In this document: piece after piece, positions 4,516 through 51,886 of the stretch
How the letters are laid out: each line of letters begins with the position of its first letter
How positions within the stretch are numbered: the first letter of the stretch is position 1
Assembly: GCA_015490805.1 (NCBI GenBank)
Contig: WFXC01000012.1
Coordinates: 1 to 64,000, forward strand
Length of the DNA: 64,000 nt
From: Candidatus Kapaibacterium sp.
Lineage (GTDB): Bacteria; Bacteroidota; Ignavibacteria; Kapaibacteriales; WFXC01
Direction: 5' to 3'
Made by a program: the position numbers and the translations under genes
Notes under the pieces: model-generated
Seen by the model: only the letters and a program-made list of their open reading frames with translations
Database searches by the model: none
Told to the model about the DNA's origin: nothing

Positions 4516-7395
4516 TCACGATGAAACAACCGGTTGCGCGGTGGACACTTTCGATCCAGTCCGATGTTGCGACAACAAGGGTGCTAAGAATTTCCCCGTG
4601 ATGGATGCCTCAGTCGCCGCTATCTGCTCCGGAGGTCCAGCGGCAACCACGTGGCCGCCGCGATCGCCCCCTTCCGGACCCAGATCAATGACCCAATCTG
4701 CCACTTTGACAACTTCCAGATTGTGCTCCACCACAACCACGGTATGTCCCTTCCGCACCAGTGCCTGCAAAGCATCCAGCAGTCTGGCGACATCTTCAAA
4801 GTGCAAGCCGGTGGTTGGCTCATCCAGCAGGAACAAAATCTTCTCCGTTGCATTTTTACCAGCCGCCAGATGGGACACCAGCTTCAGCCGCTGTGCCTCA
4901 CCGCCCGACAGAGTGGTCAGCGGCTGTCCCAGGCGCAGATAATCCAGCCCCACTGTCTGCAGCAGTTGCAGGGGGCGGGTAATACGCGGGAAACCGGCAA
5001 AAAACGCCAGTGCTTCTGAAACGGTCATCTGGAGCACATCCACGATGGATTTGCCCCGGTAGCGAACATCCAGCACATCGGAGCGGTAGCGGGTACCGTG
5101 ACAGGCTTCACATTCGATGAGCACATCTGCCAGGAACTGCATTTCTATCCGAATCCATCCTTCCCCCTGACAGGTGGGACAACGCCCGCCGGAGGGGGAG
5201 TTAAAAGAAAACATTTTCGGCTCCCATCCTCGATGCTGTGCTGCTGGCTGGGCAGCAAACAACCGGCGAATTTCATCAAATGCTTTCGTATACGTTGCCG
5301 GAGTTGATCGGGAAGAGCGACTGATAGGAGATTGATCTACCAATTCGACCGCATCGATCCATTGCAATCCTTCGATCGTGTCGAAACATCCCACTTCCGA
5401 AACGGGCAATCCCTTCAGCCGCCGCACACCTTTGTACAGCACATCGTACAGCACCGTACTTTTGCCCGATCCACTAACGCCCGTAATCGCTACCAGGCAG
5501 CCCAGCGGTATGGAAATGTCCTCTCCCTTCAAATTATGCTGCCGCGGTTTTCGCACTATCAACCACTGATCACCGGGAGTGCGGCGCCGCTTCGGTACGG
5601 CAATCTTTTTGCGTCCCGACAAATAGGCAGCTGTCAGTGTATCGCCACGCTCCAGTTCAGCAGGTGGTCCCTGGAAAACAACCGTTCCTCCCCGCTCCCC
5701 CGCTCCAGGTCCCAGCTCGACGATGTGGTCGGCACTCCGAATGACATCCGCATCGTGCTCTACAACAATCACGGTGTTTCCAATCGATCGCAAATGGAAC
5801 AGGACGTTGAGCAGGCGGTGAATGTCGCGCGGATGCAATCCGATGCTGGGTTCATCCAGCACGTAGAGCGTGCCGGTGAGGGTCGAGCTGAGCGCTGTTG
5901 CCAGATTGATCCGCTGCACTTCGCCGCCGGAGAGCGTATGCGCCAGGCGATCCAGGGTGAGGTAGTGCAGTCCAATATCCAGCAGCACCGCCAGCCGCCG
6001 GCGAATTTCCTGCAACACCCGTTCGGCAATCTGCTGCTCTGCAGGGGACAACTCCAGGGTGTCAAAGAAAGCGGCAGCTTCGGCAATGGTCATTCGCACA
6101 ACTTCGACAATGGAGCGTCCGCCAACGAAAACCTGCCGAGCAGAAGTCCGCAACCGTGATCCTCCACACGCCGGGCACCGGGTATAGCCACGGTAGCGAC
6201 TGAGAAAAACCCGCGCCTGAATCTTATGCGCTTTCTGTTCCAGCATCTGGAAAAATCCCCGAATTCCCGGATACTCATCCGCTCCATCCCAGAGAATCCG
6301 GAGTGCCTGCGGATCCAGACTGCGAATGGGCTTGTCCAACGGGATGCCATACCGTTTTGCTACCCGAATCAGCAATGCCTGATATCGGGATCCTTTGGGC
6401 GTCTGAAATGGATGGATCGCTCCTTCCAGCAACGACCGTTCTTTGTTGGGAATCACCAGATTTTCATCGATGCCGATGCTGCGTCCAAATCCCTGGCATT
6501 TTGGGCAGGCACCAACGGGATTGTTGAAGGAAAAAAGCTGTGGACGCGGCTCTTCGTACGGAATGCCGCAATAGGTGCATTCGTACCGACTGGAAAAGAC
6601 CTCCTGCCGCTGCTGCGTCAGATTCCGAACAATGCATTTGCCGTCCCCGTAGCGAAACGCCTGCTCCAGCGCCTCTGCCAGCCGGGAACGCGCCTCTTCC
6701 TCGTTGCGGTACACCAGCCGATCGATGAGCACAAACACCCGTTCACGTGGTGTACGCAGAATCGTCTCACGATCCTCTGCAATCTCGCTATCGAAGATAG
6801 TGGTTTCTTCACCAAGCACAAAGCGGAAGAAACCAGCACTGCGGAGCGACAGCAGTTGCTGCTCCCGATCGCTGTGATCAACCCGTGGCAATGGGATCAA
6901 AATGTACAGCCGATCTCCTCCCTTCAGGGATTCCTCCAACGTTCGCAGCGCAATTTCGGGCGTATCGCGCTGCACCGTACGACCGCACTCTTTACAACGG
7001 GTTTTCCCGATCCGACCGTAAAGCAGTCGCAAATAGTCGTAGATCTCCGTCATTGTCCCCACCGTTGAACGGGGATTTTTCGGCACCCCTTTTTGCTCAA
7101 TCGCAATCGCCGGCGGAATACCGACGATGCGGTCAACGTCCGGCTTCTGCATACGATCCAGAAACTGGCGAGCATAGGCAGAAAGGGATTCCACAAACCG
7201 CCGCTGTCCCTCTGCATAAATGGTGTCGAAAGCCAGGGAAGATTTGCCCGACCCGGAAACACCGCAAATTACTGTCAGTGCACCGCGGGGAATTTCCAGT
7301 GAAAGGTTCTTCAAATTGTGCGTCCTCGCCCCTTTAACGACAATCGCACCACGGCTGAAAATCGTTCGTTTCCTTCGTTGCCCTTTGCCTGCCAA
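4516..7395 (-). CDS. uvrA: Excinuclease ABC subunit UvrA
   Basis: 959 aa; KGARTHNLKNLSLEIPRGALTVICGVSGSGKSSLAFDTIYAEGQRRFVESLSAYARQFL, two ABC signatures, CxxC zinc motifs. Confidence 0.98.
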   Translation of the reverse strand: MAGKGQRRKRTIFSRGAIVVKGARTHNLKNLSLEIPRGALTVICGVSGSGKSSLAFDTIYAEGQRRFVESLSAYARQFLDRMQKPDVDRIVGIPPAIAIEQKGVPKNPRSTVGTMTEIYDYLRLLYGRIGKTRCKECGRTVQRDTPEIALRTLEESLKGGDRLYILIPLPRVDHSDREQQLLSLRSAGFFRFVLGEETTIFDSEIAEDRETILRTPRERVFVLIDRLVYRNEEEARSRLAEALEQAFRYGDGKCIVRNLTQQRQEVFSSRYECTYCGIPYEEPRPQLFSFNNPVGACPKCQGFGRSIGIDENLVIPNKERSLLEGAIHPFQTPKGSRYQALLIRVAKRYGIPLDKPIRSLDPQALRILWDGADEYPGIRGFFQMLEQKAHKIQARVFLSRYRGYTRCPACGGSRLRTSARQVFVGGRSIVEVVRMTIAEAAAFFDTLELSPAEQQIAERVLQEIRRRLAVLLDIGLHYLTLDRLAHTLSGGEVQRINLATALSSTLTGTLYVLDEPSIGLHPRDIHRLLNVLFHLRSIGNTVIVVEHDADVIRSADHIVELGPGAGERGGTVVFQGPPAELERGDTLTAAYLSGRKKIAVPKRRRTPGDQWLIVRKPRQHNLKGEDISIPLGCLVAITGVSGSGKSTVLYDVLYKGVRRLKGLPVSEVGCFDTIEGLQWIDAVELVDQSPISRSSRSTPATYTKAFDEIRRLFAAQPAAQHRGWEPKMFSFNSPSGGRCPTCQGEGWIRIEMQFLADVLIECEACHGTRYRSDVLDVRYRGKSIVDVLQMTVSEALAFFAGFPRITRPLQLLQTVGLDYLRLGQPLTTLSGGEAQRLKLVSHLAAGKNATEKILFLLDEPTTGLHFEDVARLLDALQALVRKGHTVVVVEHNLEVVKVADWVIDLGPEGGDRGGHVVAAGPPEQIAATEASITGKFLAPLLSQHRTGSKVSTAQPVVSS

Positions 7396-44890: not shown

Positions 44891-45724
44891 ATGGATACGC
44901 AAACGGTCAGCCAAGAACAATCGGCAACAACAGAGGAGCCGCAAAGGACGAATGAACCCGCGGAGATGAGTTTTCTGGAACACCTGGAAGAACTCCGCCG
45001 TCGACTTTTCTACGCTCTTGGAGGTATTGCTGTGGGTTCAGTGATCGCAGGAATTTTTATCAACTTCATCATCGAAGATCTTCTCCTGCGCCCGGCGTTA
45101 GCAGCTCATCTGAAATTGCAGAACTTCCGCCCTTTTGGTCAACCTTTTTTATACTTCAAGGTGATCTTCATTGCTGGCATCATCATTGCTTTTCCTTTTG
45201 TGCTCTACCAGTTGTGGAAATTCATTGCACCGGGACTGTATGAACACGAGCGGCGCTGGGTTCGGAGTGTCACCACAGCAACTTCTTTCTGTTTCTTTGC
45301 GGGCGTAGCCTTCGCGTACCTTGTCCTCCTGCCGGGAATGATGAACTTTGCAGCCTCCTTTGGGACCGAGAAAATTGCGAACATCATTGACATCAACGAA
45401 TACTTCGGATTTGTTACGCTGCTGATCTTAGCATCAGGAATTATCTTCGAACTTCCGGTGGTAAGCTTTATCTTAGCCCGAATTGGACTGCTTACCTCGG
45501 AATTTATGCGGCGCTATCGCCGCCATTCCATTGTTGCCATTCTGATCTTAGCAGCCGTTTTAACCCCGACGCCGGATCCAATCAATCAGGTAATTTTCGC
45601 TATCCCGCTATTTGCTCTGTACGAATTGAGCATCTGGATCGTTCGATTGATAGAACGGCGCAATGCCGTTGGGGCAGTGGCACAACAAGCGACGCAGCAA
45701 TCAGAAACGGATACACCTTCATGA
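44891..45724 (+). CDS. tatC: Sec-independent protein translocase subunit TatC
   Basis: MSFLEHLEELRRRLFYAL, KFIAPGLYEHERRWVRSV, six TM helices. Confidence 0.96.
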   Translation: MDTQTVSQEQSATTEEPQRTNEPAEMSFLEHLEELRRRLFYALGGIAVGSVIAGIFINFIIEDLLLRPALAAHLKLQNFRPFGQPFLYFKVIFIAGIIIAFPFVLYQLWKFIAPGLYEHERRWVRSVTTATSFCFFAGVAFAYLVLLPGMMNFAASFGTEKIANIIDINEYFGFVTLLILASGIIFELPVVSFILARIGLLTSEFMRRYRRHSIVAILILAAVLTPTPDPINQVIFAIPLFALYELSIWIVRLIERRNAVGAVAQQATQQSETDTPS

Positions 45725-46719
45725 CAACGCCGACGTCAACAACGACGCTTTTACAGTCGCTTCGGCAACCGATTTTGCGGGAGCTGGAACAATTCAACGA
45801 GTATTTCCGAAAACAACTCCGCTCCCACGTCTTCCTGCTGGATCTGATCCTCCGATATCTGATCCGCCAGAAAGGAAAGCAGATCCGCCCTTTGTTGGTC
45901 TTCCTGAGCGCTAAAGCGGCAGGTGAAATTACGGAACGCACCTACATCGGAGCAACGATGGTGGAACTGCTCCACACGGCAACCCTGGTACACGATGACG
46001 TGGTTGACCAGGCAGAGGTACGCCGGGGAATGGCATCAATTCGGGCAGTGTGGAAAAATAAAGCAGCTGTTCTGGTAGGCGATTTCCTCTTAGCCCGTGG
46101 ACTGCTGATCGCAGTCGAAAATCACGCCTATGACCTGCTCCAGGTCACCAGTCAGGCAGTGAAGCGGATGTCCGAGGGGGAACTCCGGCAAATGCAACGG
46201 GCAAAGCTGCTGGAGCTGGACGAACAATCCTACTTTGAAGTGATCCGCGACAAAACAGCCTCGCTGATTGCCACCTGCTGCGAAATCGGGGCGCTCAGTG
46301 CCGGAGCATCGCCGGAAGTACGTCAGCATCTTCGAGAGTACGGTGAGGCAGTCGGAACGGCTTTTCAAATCCGCGACGATCTGCTGGATTTCCTCAGCCA
46401 GCCCAGCATCCTGGGCAAACCGATCGGCAACGACGTTCAGGAACGCAAAATCACCCTTCCCCTTCTGTACGCCCTCCGAACAGCCCCAGCTAAAGAGCGC
46501 CGGCGAGTGCTGAAAATGATCAAACGAAGTCAGCACAATGGAAAAATGTTCACTGAAATCCAGCAATTCGTGGAGCAATACGGAGGCATTCGCTACGCTC
46601 ACCAGGTAGCCGAGCAGCTCATCACCCAGGCAAAAGCTCATCTGACAACACTTCCCCCATCGAACGCCCGCACCGCTCTTGAAACCTTCGCCGATTTCGT
46701 CCTGCAACGTGGTACTTAG
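45721..46719 (+). CDS. Polyprenyl (octaprenyl-type) diphosphate synthase
   Basis: 332 aa; LLHTATLVHDDVVDQAEVRRG (DDxxD) and FQIRDDLLDFL; ATGA overlap with tatC. Confidence 0.95.
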   Translation: MTTPTSTTTLLQSLRQPILRELEQFNEYFRKQLRSHVFLLDLILRYLIRQKGKQIRPLLVFLSAKAAGEITERTYIGATMVELLHTATLVHDDVVDQAEVRRGMASIRAVWKNKAAVLVGDFLLARGLLIAVENHAYDLLQVTSQAVKRMSEGELRQMQRAKLLELDEQSYFEVIRDKTASLIATCCEIGALSAGASPEVRQHLREYGEAVGTAFQIRDDLLDFLSQPSILGKPIGNDVQERKITLPLLYALRTAPAKERRRVLKMIKRSQHNGKMFTEIQQFVEQYGGIRYAHQVAEQLITQAKAHLTTLPPSNARTALETFADFVLQRGT

Positions 46720-47124
46720 CAGCTATAGCGATCAGGGTCTAGAATACATAGACGGGTCTTCCGAACTGCGCACGGCAATTCCCATCTGTTCATAGATCTT
46801 TTGCTCCAGAAGTACAGACACAAGTAATTCTATTGCCGCCACCAATGGTCACAACACCTTATTGACTTGCCCCGAATAGTCCATCTCCCAGATTTCCGGA
46901 GCATTCGAGATGCTCCTTAGACGCTGCATCGCTGTAACGACACCCGCGGGGATTGAGTTCATTTGTACTTCACTGAATTTCTTTACGCAAGAACAAATTC
47001 ACCACACGATAGCTGGAATACTAAAACCTTTCGACAGTTCACATTCAAAACCTATCCCAACTTCACATTCGCCCGTATTTGCCTATTTGCCCGTGCAAAA
47101 CTTCTTCGGGAGGGGATTGTCTTG

Positions 47125-48177
47125 TCACACTTGCACCTCCGCAAATTCTATATTATCTTTCTCAGCTTTGTACGCATAACACTTTATTCCACTATTTGAA
47201 AAGTCACTATTCCTGATCTTCACCTTTGCGTCGGCGCTAAAATCAAATGCTACTAAAATTGGACGCACCATTTCCACTTCACCGTTTGCTAACCTTCCAG
47301 CAACCCACTTTGAGTATTCTATAAGCTGGGCAACATCTTTCGCCTTAGCTCTATCCCTCTTCAGCTCGATCACAGTATACCTGTATCTCAAAGGATAGCC
47401 AGTATACCTATCGTTTTTGTGATAGACAAGAACATCGATGTTCTTTCGCGTTACGTGATAAGGAACATTGTTAGCAAACCATTCTATGTCCTCAACAGGA
47501 CCAAGCATTTTTCTTATAGAAGGGTGATTTGGACTATCTATGTTCCGTACGAACCATGCCCTCAGAATATCTTCTAACAAAACCTTACCACCGTCACTGA
47601 GTTTGCCCAAGTCAAGTACTAATTCTTTCCGTTTTATTCCTTTAGGATAACACTGCATAGAACTGGGTCTACAAACAGGGTTTCCATGTAATTTTACCAA
47701 CAGCTCTACGAGCACCTCCGCGGTTTCTGGATTCACTGTATTGATCCCTCTTGGACCTTGAATTTTTCTATAAAACCACCCCCAACACTTTGTTTCAAAT
47801 TCCCTTGAAGAAAAAAGCAAATCTTCTGGAACAGGATTTGGGAAGTAGTTTAAACACTCTATTTCTACCCTAATCGGCCACGTGCCACCTACAGCTCCAA
47901 TAGGCGTAGGATCAAAAAATGGCTTGCTTTTGATCCTATAAATTCCATGAAATCCAACTTGCCGTTCGTAGAGAAACACTATATCACCTATTCGTGTCCC
48001 CAGCATATCTGCAATCATTGCAAAGTACGGTTTTTGGGGGTTACTCAAATTGCTCTGTATCACTCCCTCATAATCCCCTGGTATTCCTTCAATCCCGACT
48101 CCCCAAAATCCGTTATCTCTCACTGTAGGAAAAGTTTTCTTATCTGTTATGAAAATGTGTGCTTTCATTTTTCCCAT
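47125..48177 (-). CDS. EVE/PUA-like domain fused to NucS/RecB-like PD-(D/E)XK nuclease domain
   Basis: 350 aa; N-term MKAHIFITDKKTF...GDIVFLYERQVGFHGIYRI (EVE/PUA-like); C-term NIDVLVYHKNDR...YTVIELKRDRAKAKDVAQLIEYSKWVAGRL (D...ExK...QxxxY). Confidence 0.65.
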   Translation of the reverse strand: MGKMKAHIFITDKKTFPTVRDNGFWGVGIEGIPGDYEGVIQSNLSNPQKPYFAMIADMLGTRIGDIVFLYERQVGFHGIYRIKSKPFFDPTPIGAVGGTWPIRVEIECLNYFPNPVPEDLLFSSREFETKCWGWFYRKIQGPRGINTVNPETAEVLVELLVKLHGNPVCRPSSMQCYPKGIKRKELVLDLGKLSDGGKVLLEDILRAWFVRNIDSPNHPSIRKMLGPVEDIEWFANNVPYHVTRKNIDVLVYHKNDRYTGYPLRYRYTVIELKRDRAKAKDVAQLIEYSKWVAGRLANGEVEMVRPILVAFDFSADAKVKIRNSDFSNSGIKCYAYKAEKDNIEFAEVQV

Positions 48178-48291
48178 GCAAAATTCTTTTACACCTGGAA
48201 CACCTGCTAAACTCCCTTAGCTACTATGGTTTTGCTCCCTGTGCAACTCCAGGATTTGCCTGCATTCTTTCTGTCCGTTTCTCGGTCTCAC

Positions 48292-48753
48292 TCAAACAAT
48301 TCCGTTGCAAACAGGGAATTTGTCTCCATCAAACACCCACAAACTATCGGTGAGAATTTCATCGTACTCTTTCCATCTGTTAAGATTGATGTCGTTGACC
48401 TTATTTGTTTTGATTTCAGTTAATGCTTTCTTCAACCTTTCAAGGTAGTACCTTGCTCTCTCCAGTGTAAGAGCTTGTTCTATCTGGGAGAGTTCGCCCA
48501 TCAAATAACTGTATTTCATTTTCACTGTGTCACCATTGCTGTCGATGTTCAAAACACCGATGGTATCCCTGTCGGGTGAAACAAGATGGCTTCTTAGATC
48601 CCTTAACGCTATTTTTAGTTCTTGCAGGCTTTCCAACGCCAGCAGGTTGTCCAGAACCTCCAGCAACTTCGATCTGTTAATGAGAAGAATGCGGCTTTGC
48701 AACGTCTGTTCACTGCTATCAAACAACGTTGCTTGAATCTTCTCCCTCTTCAT
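48292..48753 (-). CDS. Hypothetical helical protein
   Basis: 153 aa ORF in the same AT-rich segment, codirectional and ~115 bp upstream of the nuclease gene; no recognised domain. Confidence 0.55.
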   Translation of the reverse strand: MKREKIQATLFDSSEQTLQSRILLINRSKLLEVLDNLLALESLQELKIALRDLRSHLVSPDRDTIGVLNIDSNGDTVKMKYSYLMGELSQIEQALTLERARYYLERLKKALTEIKTNKVNDINLNRWKEYDEILTDSLWVFDGDKFPVCNGIV

Positions 48754-48929
48754 TTTTCAGCTTCCTGAATATCAAACTCAATCAAACGTTAAAACTGTCC
48801 ACAAAATCAAACATTTTATACGACTCTGGCACCCTGCAAAACTACCGGTCAACCCAATCTTCCTTCTATCCCCACGTTCCACGTAGGAGCTCGCAACCTT
48901 TTCACCCAGGCCACACTCTCCTGCAATGT

Positions 48930-50084
48930 CTACTGTCCCTGCGCCCATCGCTGAAGAATCTGCGCCACTTCCGGACGGGTGAATTCCGGCGGAAGCGGCT
49001 TCCCTTCCCGCAGCAACTGCCGAACTTTCGTGCCGGAAAGAAAAATTCTCTGCTCTGGCATACTGGGCGACGTTTTGGTCGTTGCCATCCCACCGGTCAC
49101 GGTGCACCAGAAAGCGTGTTCGAACATCAGGGGAGTGATTTGCAGTTGCTCAGGATCTACTTCGTCGAAGATCCGCTGGGCATCGTATGTGCCGTAGTAG
49201 TTCCCCACTCCAGCGTGATCCCTTCCAACGATAAAATGTGTGCACCCATAGTTCTTGCGCAGGATAGCGTGGAAAATTGCCTCCCGGGGTCCGGCATATC
49301 GCATAGCAGCCGGTAGCACCGATAGCATTACCCGATCCTGTGGATAGTAGTGGCGAATCAATGCCTGATAACATTCCATTCTGACAGCGGCTGGAATATC
49401 GTCCGACTTCGTCTCCCCAACCAATGGATGGATCAACAAGCCATCGACAATTTCCAGCGCACACTTTGTAAGATACTCATGCGCCCGGTGCATTGGATTG
49501 CGAGTCTGGAAGGCAACGATTGTTTTCCATCCCCGTTTCTGAAAAGCTGCTCTCGTCTCTGCCGGCGTCAACGTGTGCTCCGGGAATTCCGGTTGAAAGC
49601 GGTCCAGAAAGTAGCGGATTGGCCCGGCAAGCACGTAAGGACCTTCCTCAAACAGCTTTGCAACGCCGGGATGATTTCGGTCATCGGTACGATACACAAG
49701 CACCGCTTCCCGTTCTATGTCCCGCTCGAACTTTTCCTGCACCGCCATAATGGCATAGACTGTACCGGCAGCATCTGTCAGCAGCACTTCATCCCCTGAA
49801 ACAACCTGCCGGTACTGCTTCAACGGCACGGTCAGCGTCACGGGGATTGAAAACACCAGCCCGGTCGCCAGGCGCATTTGCTCCACAACGTTTTGGTAAT
49901 CATCTTTCCCCATAAACCCTTCCAGTGGACTCAAGGCTCCAACGCCGATCAGGTAAGCATCGGACAAAACCCGATAGGACACTGGCACCCGGAGTGCATC
50001 TTTGTACTCTTCCAGTAACTGTTGCACCTGAGCACCCTGAACAGTACGATTCACCAACGTTCCACCATGGGCTGGTATCGACAT
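48930..50084 (-). CDS. sat: Sulfate adenylyltransferase (homo-oligomeric ATP sulfurylase)
   Basis: 384 aa; GALSPLEGFMGKDDY, VAFQTRNPMHRAHEYLTKCALE, HPLVGETKSDDIPA, FIVGRDHAGVGNYYGTYDAQ. GAGGAG-type RBS before ATG at 50084. Confidence 0.96.
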   Translation of the reverse strand: MSIPAHGGTLVNRTVQGAQVQQLLEEYKDALRVPVSYRVLSDAYLIGVGALSPLEGFMGKDDYQNVVEQMRLATGLVFSIPVTLTVPLKQYRQVVSGDEVLLTDAAGTVYAIMAVQEKFERDIEREAVLVYRTDDRNHPGVAKLFEEGPYVLAGPIRYFLDRFQPEFPEHTLTPAETRAAFQKRGWKTIVAFQTRNPMHRAHEYLTKCALEIVDGLLIHPLVGETKSDDIPAAVRMECYQALIRHYYPQDRVMLSVLPAAMRYAGPREAIFHAILRKNYGCTHFIVGRDHAGVGNYYGTYDAQRIFDEVDPEQLQITPLMFEHAFWCTVTGGMATTKTSPSMPEQRIFLSGTKVRQLLREGKPLPPEFTRPEVAQILQRWAQGQ

Positions 50085-50101
50085 TGCAATCTCCTCTCTA
50101 T

Positions 50102-51886
50102 TCACAAATACACCCAGTACACAATCGCTGTTGTCAACAATGCTACGGCTAAATTCAGGGGCAAACCAACGCGAAGAAAATCGGAAAACCGATAATTTCC
50201 AGCACCATACACAATCAAATTGGTTTGATACCCAATAGGCGTAGCGAAACTGGCAGAAGCAGCAATGGCAACGACTAACGCCAGCGGTAACAGTGGTATG
50301 GCACTTTGAGCCGCAACAGAAGCGGCAATCGGAAACGCAATAGCTGATGCCGCAACATTGGTCATCATTTCTGTCAGGACATTGGTCAACAAAAAGACGC
50401 CCAGAAGAATCAGCCACTGCTGTCCCGATTGCATCAGAGGCTGGAAAAGCTGCACAACTGCATCGTCGATACCAGCCCCATCAATTGCGGTACTGATGCC
50501 AAAAGCAGCACCAATGATGAGCAGTACACTCCAATCCACTGCATATTTAATTTCGCTCAACGGCAGCGCTCCCACAAGCACGCTGGCAACGGCGGCAGCC
50601 GCCAGCGCTACCGGCAAACTCAACCAGCCACCGGCGACAACACCCAGGGCAAGCAACAACAACCCTAAGGTCACATAGCCCCGGGACTGTGGTTTCACTG
50701 CCTCGCTTCTGGCTTCGCTGACCAGATAGAAATCTGGGGAATGATACCATTGTTCCAGAAAGCCTTTGGGAGCGACTAACAACAGCGTGTCGCCCGGCTG
50801 TAGCACCACATCGCCGATTTTTTGCCGAATCCGTTCCCCATTGCGATGAATCGCTAGAATGGCGGCATTGTAGAGCGCCCGGAAGCCACTTTCCCGAACC
50901 TTTTTCCCAATCAATGGCGATGTCGGAGAGATAACAACCTCAAAAACCCCTACTTGATCGGAATCATTCAGAGTCCACGGCAGTTTCGCTTCTGGCAACA
51001 ATCGCAAACCCGGAATTTGCTGCAAATCCATAATCGTATCCGGTACGCCGGTAAAAAAGAGTCGATCCCCGATATACAGTCGCTCTGTTGGAGCCACCGG
51101 AGCAATGAGCAGTCCATCTCGCTCAATCTGAAACAGGAAAACCCCCTGAAGATGGCGCAATCCTGCTGCTTCCACACTTTTGCCCACAAAAGGAAATTGC
51201 GGCATAATCTCTGCTTCAACTACAAACTCACGCACGTGTTGTTCCAGTTGCTGCATCGGCATTTGCCGTACCGGCAACCACCGAGGAGCGATAAAGGTCA
51301 GATACACCAATCCAAGAATAACGGCAGGGACACCAACGATGGCGAAAGTGAACAGAGAAAAAGATTCTGATGTTATGCTGGAAACATAGCCATCAACAAG
51401 CAAATTTGTACTGGTACCAATCAGGGTACACATTCCACCGAGGATTGCTGCGTATGAAAGCGGGATCAAATAATGCGAGAGCGGCTTGCCATACCGCCGA
51501 GCCCACTGTCGAAGTGGTGCTACCAGCGAGGTTACAACGACAGAATTGCTCAGAAACGCCGAAAGGAGTGCTACCACCGGAAGAAAGCGCCAGAGCACAT
51601 ACGGGGTACTGCGTCCGGGACTTTGCAACACACGATAGCCAAACCACCGCAACATCCCTGTTGATTGTAACGCTGCACCAATGATAAACAAAGCACCGAG
51701 GGTCAGCAGGATCGGATGGGCAAATCCCTGTAATGCCTGCTCAACCGAAAGAACACCTCCAAAAATCAACGCCAGCAAAGCTCCAAAGATCAGTATTTCG
51801 GCTGGTGCCACCTCCCGGATCAAGGCTCCAACCAAAACAAGGAGCACAACCAGCGTAAAAACAAAGGGGAAATCCATACTGAGCAC
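50102..51886 (-). CDS. SLC13-family permease with two TrkA-C-like domains (putative sulfate permease)
   Basis: 594 aa polytopic; TSLVAPLRQWARRYGKPLSHYLIPLSYAAILGGMCTLIGTSTNLLVDG; adjacent to sat. Confidence 0.88.
   Translation of the reverse strand: MLSMDFPFVFTLVVLLVLVGALIREVAPAEILIFGALLALIFGGVLSVEQALQGFAHPILLTLGALFIIGAALQSTGMLRWFGYRVLQSPGRSTPYVLWRFLPVVALLSAFLSNSVVVTSLVAPLRQWARRYGKPLSHYLIPLSYAAILGGMCTLIGTSTNLLVDGYVSSITSESFSLFTFAIVGVPAVILGLVYLTFIAPRWLPVRQMPMQQLEQHVREFVVEAEIMPQFPFVGKSVEAAGLRHLQGVFLFQIERDGLLIAPVAPTERLYIGDRLFFTGVPDTIMDLQQIPGLRLLPEAKLPWTLNDSDQVGVFEVVISPTSPLIGKKVRESGFRALYNAAILAIHRNGERIRQKIGDVVLQPGDTLLLVAPKGFLEQWYHSPDFYLVSEARSEAVKPQSRGYVTLGLLLLALGVVAGGWLSLPVALAAAAVASVLVGALPLSEIKYAVDWSVLLIIGAAFGISTAIDGAGIDDAVVQLFQPLMQSGQQWLILLGVFLLTNVLTEMMTNVAASAIAFPIAASVAAQSAIPLLPLALVVAIAASASFATPIGYQTNLIVYGAGNYRFSDFLRVGLPLNLAVALLTTAIVYWVYL

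Follow-up and report, generated by a model that had tools for sequence, protein, structure and literature searches.

The window analysed here, a stretch of 64,000 nucleotides from Candidatus Kapaibacterium sp. (contig WFXC01000012.1), carries two codirectional open reading frames on the minus strand between a polyprenyl synthase gene and the sat ORF, and both exist as the first-pass annotation of this DNA had described them. The larger, here called nucB, encodes a predicted nuclease, and the smaller corresponds to the beginning of a DNA methyltransferase (MTase) gene, MT1. The locus consists of the following features, where L166 and L167 denote the same locus in two genomes of the same genus:

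45721-46719, plus strand: polyprenyl synthase gene, one flank of the two genes.
46849-46965, minus strand: remnant of nucA, the native nuclease gene (final ~38 codons and stop); DNA matches of 90% (L166) and 86% (L167) across the stretch, the alignment ending ...GQVNKVL-stop.
46966-48327, no strand: acquired segment of 1362 bp, in the place of 1657-1677 bp of the congeners that comprise the 3' part of MT1 and the bulk of nucA; boundaries from blastn against L166 and L167, both junctions aligned.
47125-48177, minus strand: nucB, 350 aa, predicted EVE domain (~residues 1-165) and NucS-type PD-(D/E)XK nuclease (~200-350); AlphaFold pLDDT 80.9; Foldseek matches 2p5d/2hd9, VcaM4I 6yex and EndoMS/NucS 5gkj/2vld; catalytic residues conserved.
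48292-48753, minus strand: 153-aa ORF, made up of MT1 codons 1-142 (48328-48753), a methyltransferase stump without motifs I and IV, and of 11 further codons unrelated to MT1; PADLOC MTase_II PDLC03351; 94% DNA identity to the whole MT1 of L166/L167.
48930-50417, minus strand: sat ORF, the other flank of the two genes.

The region of the two genes is AT-rich, as had been noticed by eye. Its GC content is 42.2% (46720-48830) as compared to a mean of 51.7% (sd 2.8%) in 2-kb windows of the whole stretch, and the minimum of the stretch, at 46800, is the most AT-rich 2 kb and holds both genes. The true start of nucB is probably the second ATG, at 48168, where the protein would begin with MKAHIF as its relatives do.

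The 350-aa protein had been read as an EVE/PUA-like domain joined to a NucS-type nuclease, and AlphaFold, Foldseek and profile search agree on this. The AlphaFold model, made from an alignment of 14 relatives (pLDDT 80.9, pTM 0.84), recovered both a PUA-like (EVE) fold and a PD-(D/E)XK (NucS) fold. Against the PDB it matched the EVE structures 2p5d (E=1.8e-6) and 2hd9 (E=2.8e-6), as well as 1zce and 6yex, with probability 1.00, and YTH domains were also matched; the nuclease part matched EndoMS/NucS 5gkj (E=4.8e-4, probability 1.00), 5gke and 2vld. In the profile search the EVE match (2p5d, E=0.0022) was N-terminal and the NucS match covered residues 252-319. The scores against the curated models were below their cut-offs, 15.2 bits for Pfam NucS_C (PF01939; cut-off 24) and 26.7 bits for NCBIfam NucS (NF003270; cut-off 216). 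The motifs quoted earlier are present and conserved (D248, E271-x-K273, Q284, Y288), with D248, E271, K273 and Y288 invariant among the 14 aligned relatives and Q284 found in most. NucB is, by its predicted folds, an EVE domain of the PUA superfamily followed by a NucS/EndoMS-type PD-(D/E)XK domain. It is presumably an active nuclease, and a dependence on DNA modification is plausible. The EVE-site tryptophan W25, aligned with the Trp of 2p5d, is found in all 12 nucB genes and is absent from five nucA-type relatives and from G288, but it is not decisive, since the EVE-NucS relatives linked to MT2-type and Dam-type MTases carry Tyr at the same position.

The 153-aa protein had been described as lacking a recognised domain and as a possible new partner of the nuclease. 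Neither Pfam nor NCBIfam matched a domain in it, but PADLOC did: MTase_II PDLC03351 (E=1.6e-23), with the match confined to positions 5-115 of the 348 in the model. The protein can be aligned to the initial ~142-143 residues of full amino-methyltransferases (MT1) and ends ahead of motif I (DxFxGSGTT) and motif IV (HPPY). AlphaFold predicted a helical domain with moderate confidence, for which Foldseek found nothing significant in the PDB. The locus in its present state holds no complete Type II methyltransferase; residues 1-142 are left, and motifs I and IV are gone. The idea of a new defence component was dropped, as the PADLOC match and the whole MT1 at the same locus in two congeners identify the gene as an MTase stump. 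Its dN/dS (NG86) is 0.09-0.12, not above the 0.13 of the same region of intact MT1, so either MT1 was truncated recently or its stump is under constraint. Given the variable stump lengths and stump-free loci described below, a recent relic seems the likelier of the two.

The comparison with the congeners revealed what the locus looked like before the replacement. In both L166 (G886) and L167 there is a complete MT1, of 384 and 383 aa respectively, covering positions 4-348 of 348 of PDLC03351, and directly behind it lies nucA, a different EVE-NucS nuclease gene only ~23-24% identical to nucB. In L167 MT1 and nucA (352 aa) are both open, that is, a complete methyltransferase beside a nuclease. 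In L166 nucA is frameshifted (~5027-5331) and MT1 is whole, which is the opposite, survivable order of R-M decay. The alignment of the window to the congeners covers sat and MT1 codons 1-142 (94% DNA identity in the stump), breaks at 48328 and is picked up again at 46965, within the final ~38 nucA codons, so that the segment with nucB occupies the place of the larger part of the congeners' MT1 and nucA. The synteny on both flanks argues against an assembly chimera. Neither inverted repeats nor a transposon were found at the junctions, and a search of the window for remnants of R195 (a putative restriction enzyme, see below), MT2 or P76 gave matches at chance level only. These alignments show that the window locus was formerly a complete Type II R-M operon, MT1 followed by nucA, and that the nucB segment replaced the catalytic part of MT1 and all of nucA except its 3' tail. 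The suggested tie to restriction is borne out by the congeners' operon, and the horizontal acquisition of the nuclease gene by the lack of nucB at their locus; that the operon had contained another EVE-NucS nuclease, with its 3' remnant at 46849-46965, had been overlooked. Apart from distant matches (nucA itself in G885 and a NucS-like domain in G059), no nucB was found in the two congeners or in 28 further relatives that were searched.

A second before/after pair was found in Omnitrophota. Locus L133 has MT1 and then the first part of a nucA-type gene, and in L002 the MT1 is 96.8% identical to that of L133 up to the base before the nucB ATG, where nucB follows; past nucB there is a 96%-identical piece of the nucA-type gene of L133.

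Relatives of nucB with 53-66% identity occur in Omnitrophota, WOR-3/Stahlbacteria, Chloroflexota, Sumerlaeota, Cloacimonadota and others, and the 12 nucB genes in the tree form a single clade (support 100/100). None of the 12 has a demonstrably complete MT1 beside it, and seven, spread over several phyla, adjoin MT1 remains. These end at codon 142 in the window, after ~203 codons in both L005 and L008 (end points within two codons of each other), after ~201 aa in L123 (to ~position 222 of the L002 MT1) and after ~330 codons in L002; in L004 the last ~10-12 residues are lost, and in L003 a short stump was seen at the DNA level (120 bp at 87% to L004). At each of these seven loci nucB lies downstream of MT1 in the same orientation. 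The adjacent MT1 is truncated at 7/7 nucB loci as compared to 1/17 elsewhere (Fisher's exact p = 2.3e-5; 9e-5 without near-duplicates, and 3e-4 after also removing L004), in samples that are small, largely MAGs and not all independent. The 17 comparison genes lie beside nucA, beside R195 or alone, and their completeness was judged by ORF lengths and alignments; 16 are complete, and the exception is the split MT1 of L034. A whole MT1 was not found elsewhere in the genome of the window or in the solo-nucB genomes, and we rejected the idea that such a gene complements the stump. Ahead of the solo copies L006 and L007, possible MT1 remnants were suggestive by eye, did not rise above the null in a profile scan and were not counted.

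NucB is maintained. Its dN/dS is 0.042 between L003 and L004 and 0.071 between L005 and L006, two loci with no whole MTase at either, and across phyla the synonymous sites are near saturation while the amino acids are 62-82% identical. These values show strong purifying selection on nucB in loci without a whole MTase. Decay also occurs, as the L123 copy lacks the catalytic domain. In several genomes nucB is directly preceded by the gene of P76, a 70-76-aa protein with the core SFDIDDFxGDGxWWLxxY, with a 4-bp overlap in several loci (L004:1944-2174, L005:9769-9981, L006:9770-9988, L007:6464-6694, L008:5925-6155, L009:6594-6821). P76 has no match in Pfam or NCBIfam and only a marginal one in PHROGs (E=0.074), and it is not found in the window. 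L005 and L006 share P76 and nucB at different chromosomal sites (93.6% DNA identity over 1.3 kb, beginning 3 bp before P76), which makes the pair a transferable unit. In L003 and L004, nucB is 94% alike as compared to 74% for the neighbouring UDG gene. Carriage by phages or plasmids was unsupported: no nucB relatives were found in phages or viral contigs, the plasmid search gave one distant nucB match (Halobaculum), and the same search gave no match for P76 or nucA.

Nine more distant EVE-NucS genes adjoin complete MTases, and other distant ones are solitary. The partner is MT1 in L093, L127, L134 and L167, an MT2-type MTase in L095, L096 and L130, a Dam/D12-type MTase, as read by eye, in L094, and MT2 together with MT1 in L038 (G288). 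Since most EVE-NucS relatives of known context adjoin MTases, the family taken together cannot plainly be called Type IV. Other arrangements were also seen. L128 (G711):3675-7419 has two tandem EVE-NucS-like genes, with a C5-type methyltransferase and a Vsr-like gene, both read by eye, on the opposite strand, and L129 (G731):676-4374 has a stand-alone EVE-like protein beside a 1075-aa ATPase-like one, a pair that may represent the archaeal EVE/DUF499 association of PMC7641849. The commonest neighbour of complete MT1 is R195, a putative PD-(D/E)XK restriction enzyme of 195-224 aa (L003:3268-3855, L008:7183-7770, L037:5773-6432, L040:4101-4733), unmatched in Pfam, NCBIfam and PADLOC. The genome of the window also has, at L175 (G000:C13:25602-26369), a PF01555-type DNA methyltransferase 47% identical to MT2 of G288; it occurs in both congeners too, and the match spans one in-frame TAA in all three genomes.

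We consider it rather probable that nucB is an MTase-independent, and probably modification-dependent (Type IV-like), nuclease gene that displaced a Type II R-M operon, with the mark of MT1 as candidate target. A foreign segment with nucB, a distant relative of nucA, has overwritten the catalytic part of MT1 and nearly all of nucA, and NucB would require no cognate methyltransferase. By the likeliest mechanism, a modified base in incoming DNA would be flipped out and recognised by the EVE domain, and cleavage by the NucS-type domain would follow, in the manner of EVE-HNH Type IV enzymes. The recurrence of nucB together with broken MT1 makes the mark set by MT1 itself a candidate trigger, in which case active MT1 and nucB would be mutually exclusive. 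If the mark is such a modification, the arrival of nucB in an MT1 host would be lethal unless the same step destroyed MT1, and the position of nucB in broken MT1 genes would thereby be accounted for. It is a more tentative proposal, and one we would put on the doubtful side, that the nucB clade reads MT1-type marks in general and that Type II R-M loci are recurrently converted in place to Type IV loci, with nucB replacing the 3' part of MT1. Against such a conflict, the MT1 of L004 is short of only its last ~10-12 residues and might work, and the codirectionality at 7/7 loci is equally explained by promoter supply.

It is conceivable, but unlikely, that NucB is instead an orphan Type II restriction enzyme, tolerated since it is silent or inactive, has no sites in the genome, or is shielded by an unrelated methyltransferase elsewhere. 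The ancestor may have been Type II, since the closest relative with an MTase beside it, L038 in G288 (39% identical), has both MT2 and MT1 as neighbours; solitary restriction enzymes beside MTase pseudogenes have a precedent (PMC3488263), and other MTases are present in the genome itself. Against this reading stand the long purifying selection and the intact catalytic residues in MTase-poor loci. No MTase type is common to all nucB genomes, and a single MT2-type enzyme protecting all of them was not found, MT2-like genes being absent or below 39% identity in about half. Furthermore, for a Type II pair it is the methyltransferase whose loss is lethal, and this is nevertheless the loss seen at 7/7 loci.

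We regard it as improbable that the MT1 stump acts as a small partner with a function of its own beside nucB, providing DNA-binding specificity, expression control or inhibition. The frames are intact from the start codon in the window, L005, L008 and L123, and the dN/dS of the window stump is not above that of intact MT1, although a recent truncation also accounts for this. The stumps of L005 and L008 end at most two codons apart, and a common ancestral 203-aa stump was considered as a sign of function; the end points do coincide, yet we claim no function from this. What speaks against a partner is that stump length varies from ~40 to ~330 codons and that nucB loci L009, L010 and L011 have no stump; in addition, the same N-terminal domain is equally present in MT1 paired with unrelated nucleases. 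Still less credible, in our judgement, is a nucB that behaves as a selfish element in the manner of homing genes, cleaving R-M loci and inserting copies of itself there. The 7/12 nucB loci at MT1 stumps, the sharing of exactly P76 and nucB by L005 and L006 at different sites, and the excess similarity of nucB over UDG in L003/L004 would agree with it. The insertion points in MT1 vary widely, though, the flanking MT1/nucA DNA is deleted and not interrupted, the window locus lacks inverted repeats, and several nucB copies lie between housekeeping genes.

The displacing, probably modification-dependent nuclease that we favour has partial counterparts among known systems. EVE-PD(D/E)XK enzymes have been predicted to be of Type IV (Bell et al. 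2020, PMC7641849), and VcaM4I is an EVE-HNH modification-dependent restriction enzyme (PMC7897488). NucB shares with them the EVE-nuclease fusion, an EVE fold matched to VcaM4I by Foldseek and a clade that is probably independent of MTases, but its nuclease, behind an N-terminal EVE domain, is of the NucS/EndoMS type, it has relatives paired with Type II MTases, and it is known here from sequence and predicted fold. With the mismatch endonuclease NucS/EndoMS it has in common the C-terminal PD-(D/E)XK core with D, ExK and QxxxY; it differs in falling below the curated NucS cut-offs, in having an EVE domain in place of the NucS N-terminal domain, and in that its gene is accessory and has no housekeeping role in repair. 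The MTase family PDLC03351 of Type II R-M systems includes both the stump and the congeners' MT1, whereas the window has lost an intact methyltransferase and carries another nuclease. A full-length restriction gene beside a broken MTase is also known from 74 cases of solitary REases (Ershova et al. 2012, PMC3488263). nucB is likewise full-length beside a broken MTase, but the same locus in the congeners shows that it is a replacement and not MT1's original partner. The incompatibility proposed for MT1 and nucB, between a resident methyltransferase and a methylation-dependent nuclease, resembles the epigenetic conflict of PcaRCI/PcaRCII, in which the R-M system silences the nuclease (PMC8989522), and that of McrBC, which kills the cell upon genome methylation (PMC2614495). 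At the nucB loci, on the contrary, the methyltransferase is destroyed and the nuclease stands in its place, for which the conflict would be the cause.

In the literature search no paper was found with both 'EVE domain' and 'NucS'. As far as that search shows, EVE-NucS enzymes neighbouring complete Type II MTases appear to be new, and so does an MTase-free clade displacing Type II systems, with at least two direct before/after cases. These cases give genomic evidence, from two unrelated lineages, that a nuclease can overwrite a Type II R-M operon with loss of the methyltransferase. A single small gene pair, nucB plus MT1 from a congener, makes the idea of a conflict between modification and modification-dependent restriction directly testable. 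EVE-NucS fusions have so far been read as Type IV, but they often adjoin complete DNA methyltransferases, which suggests that Type II as well as Type IV enzymes may make use of EVE domains.
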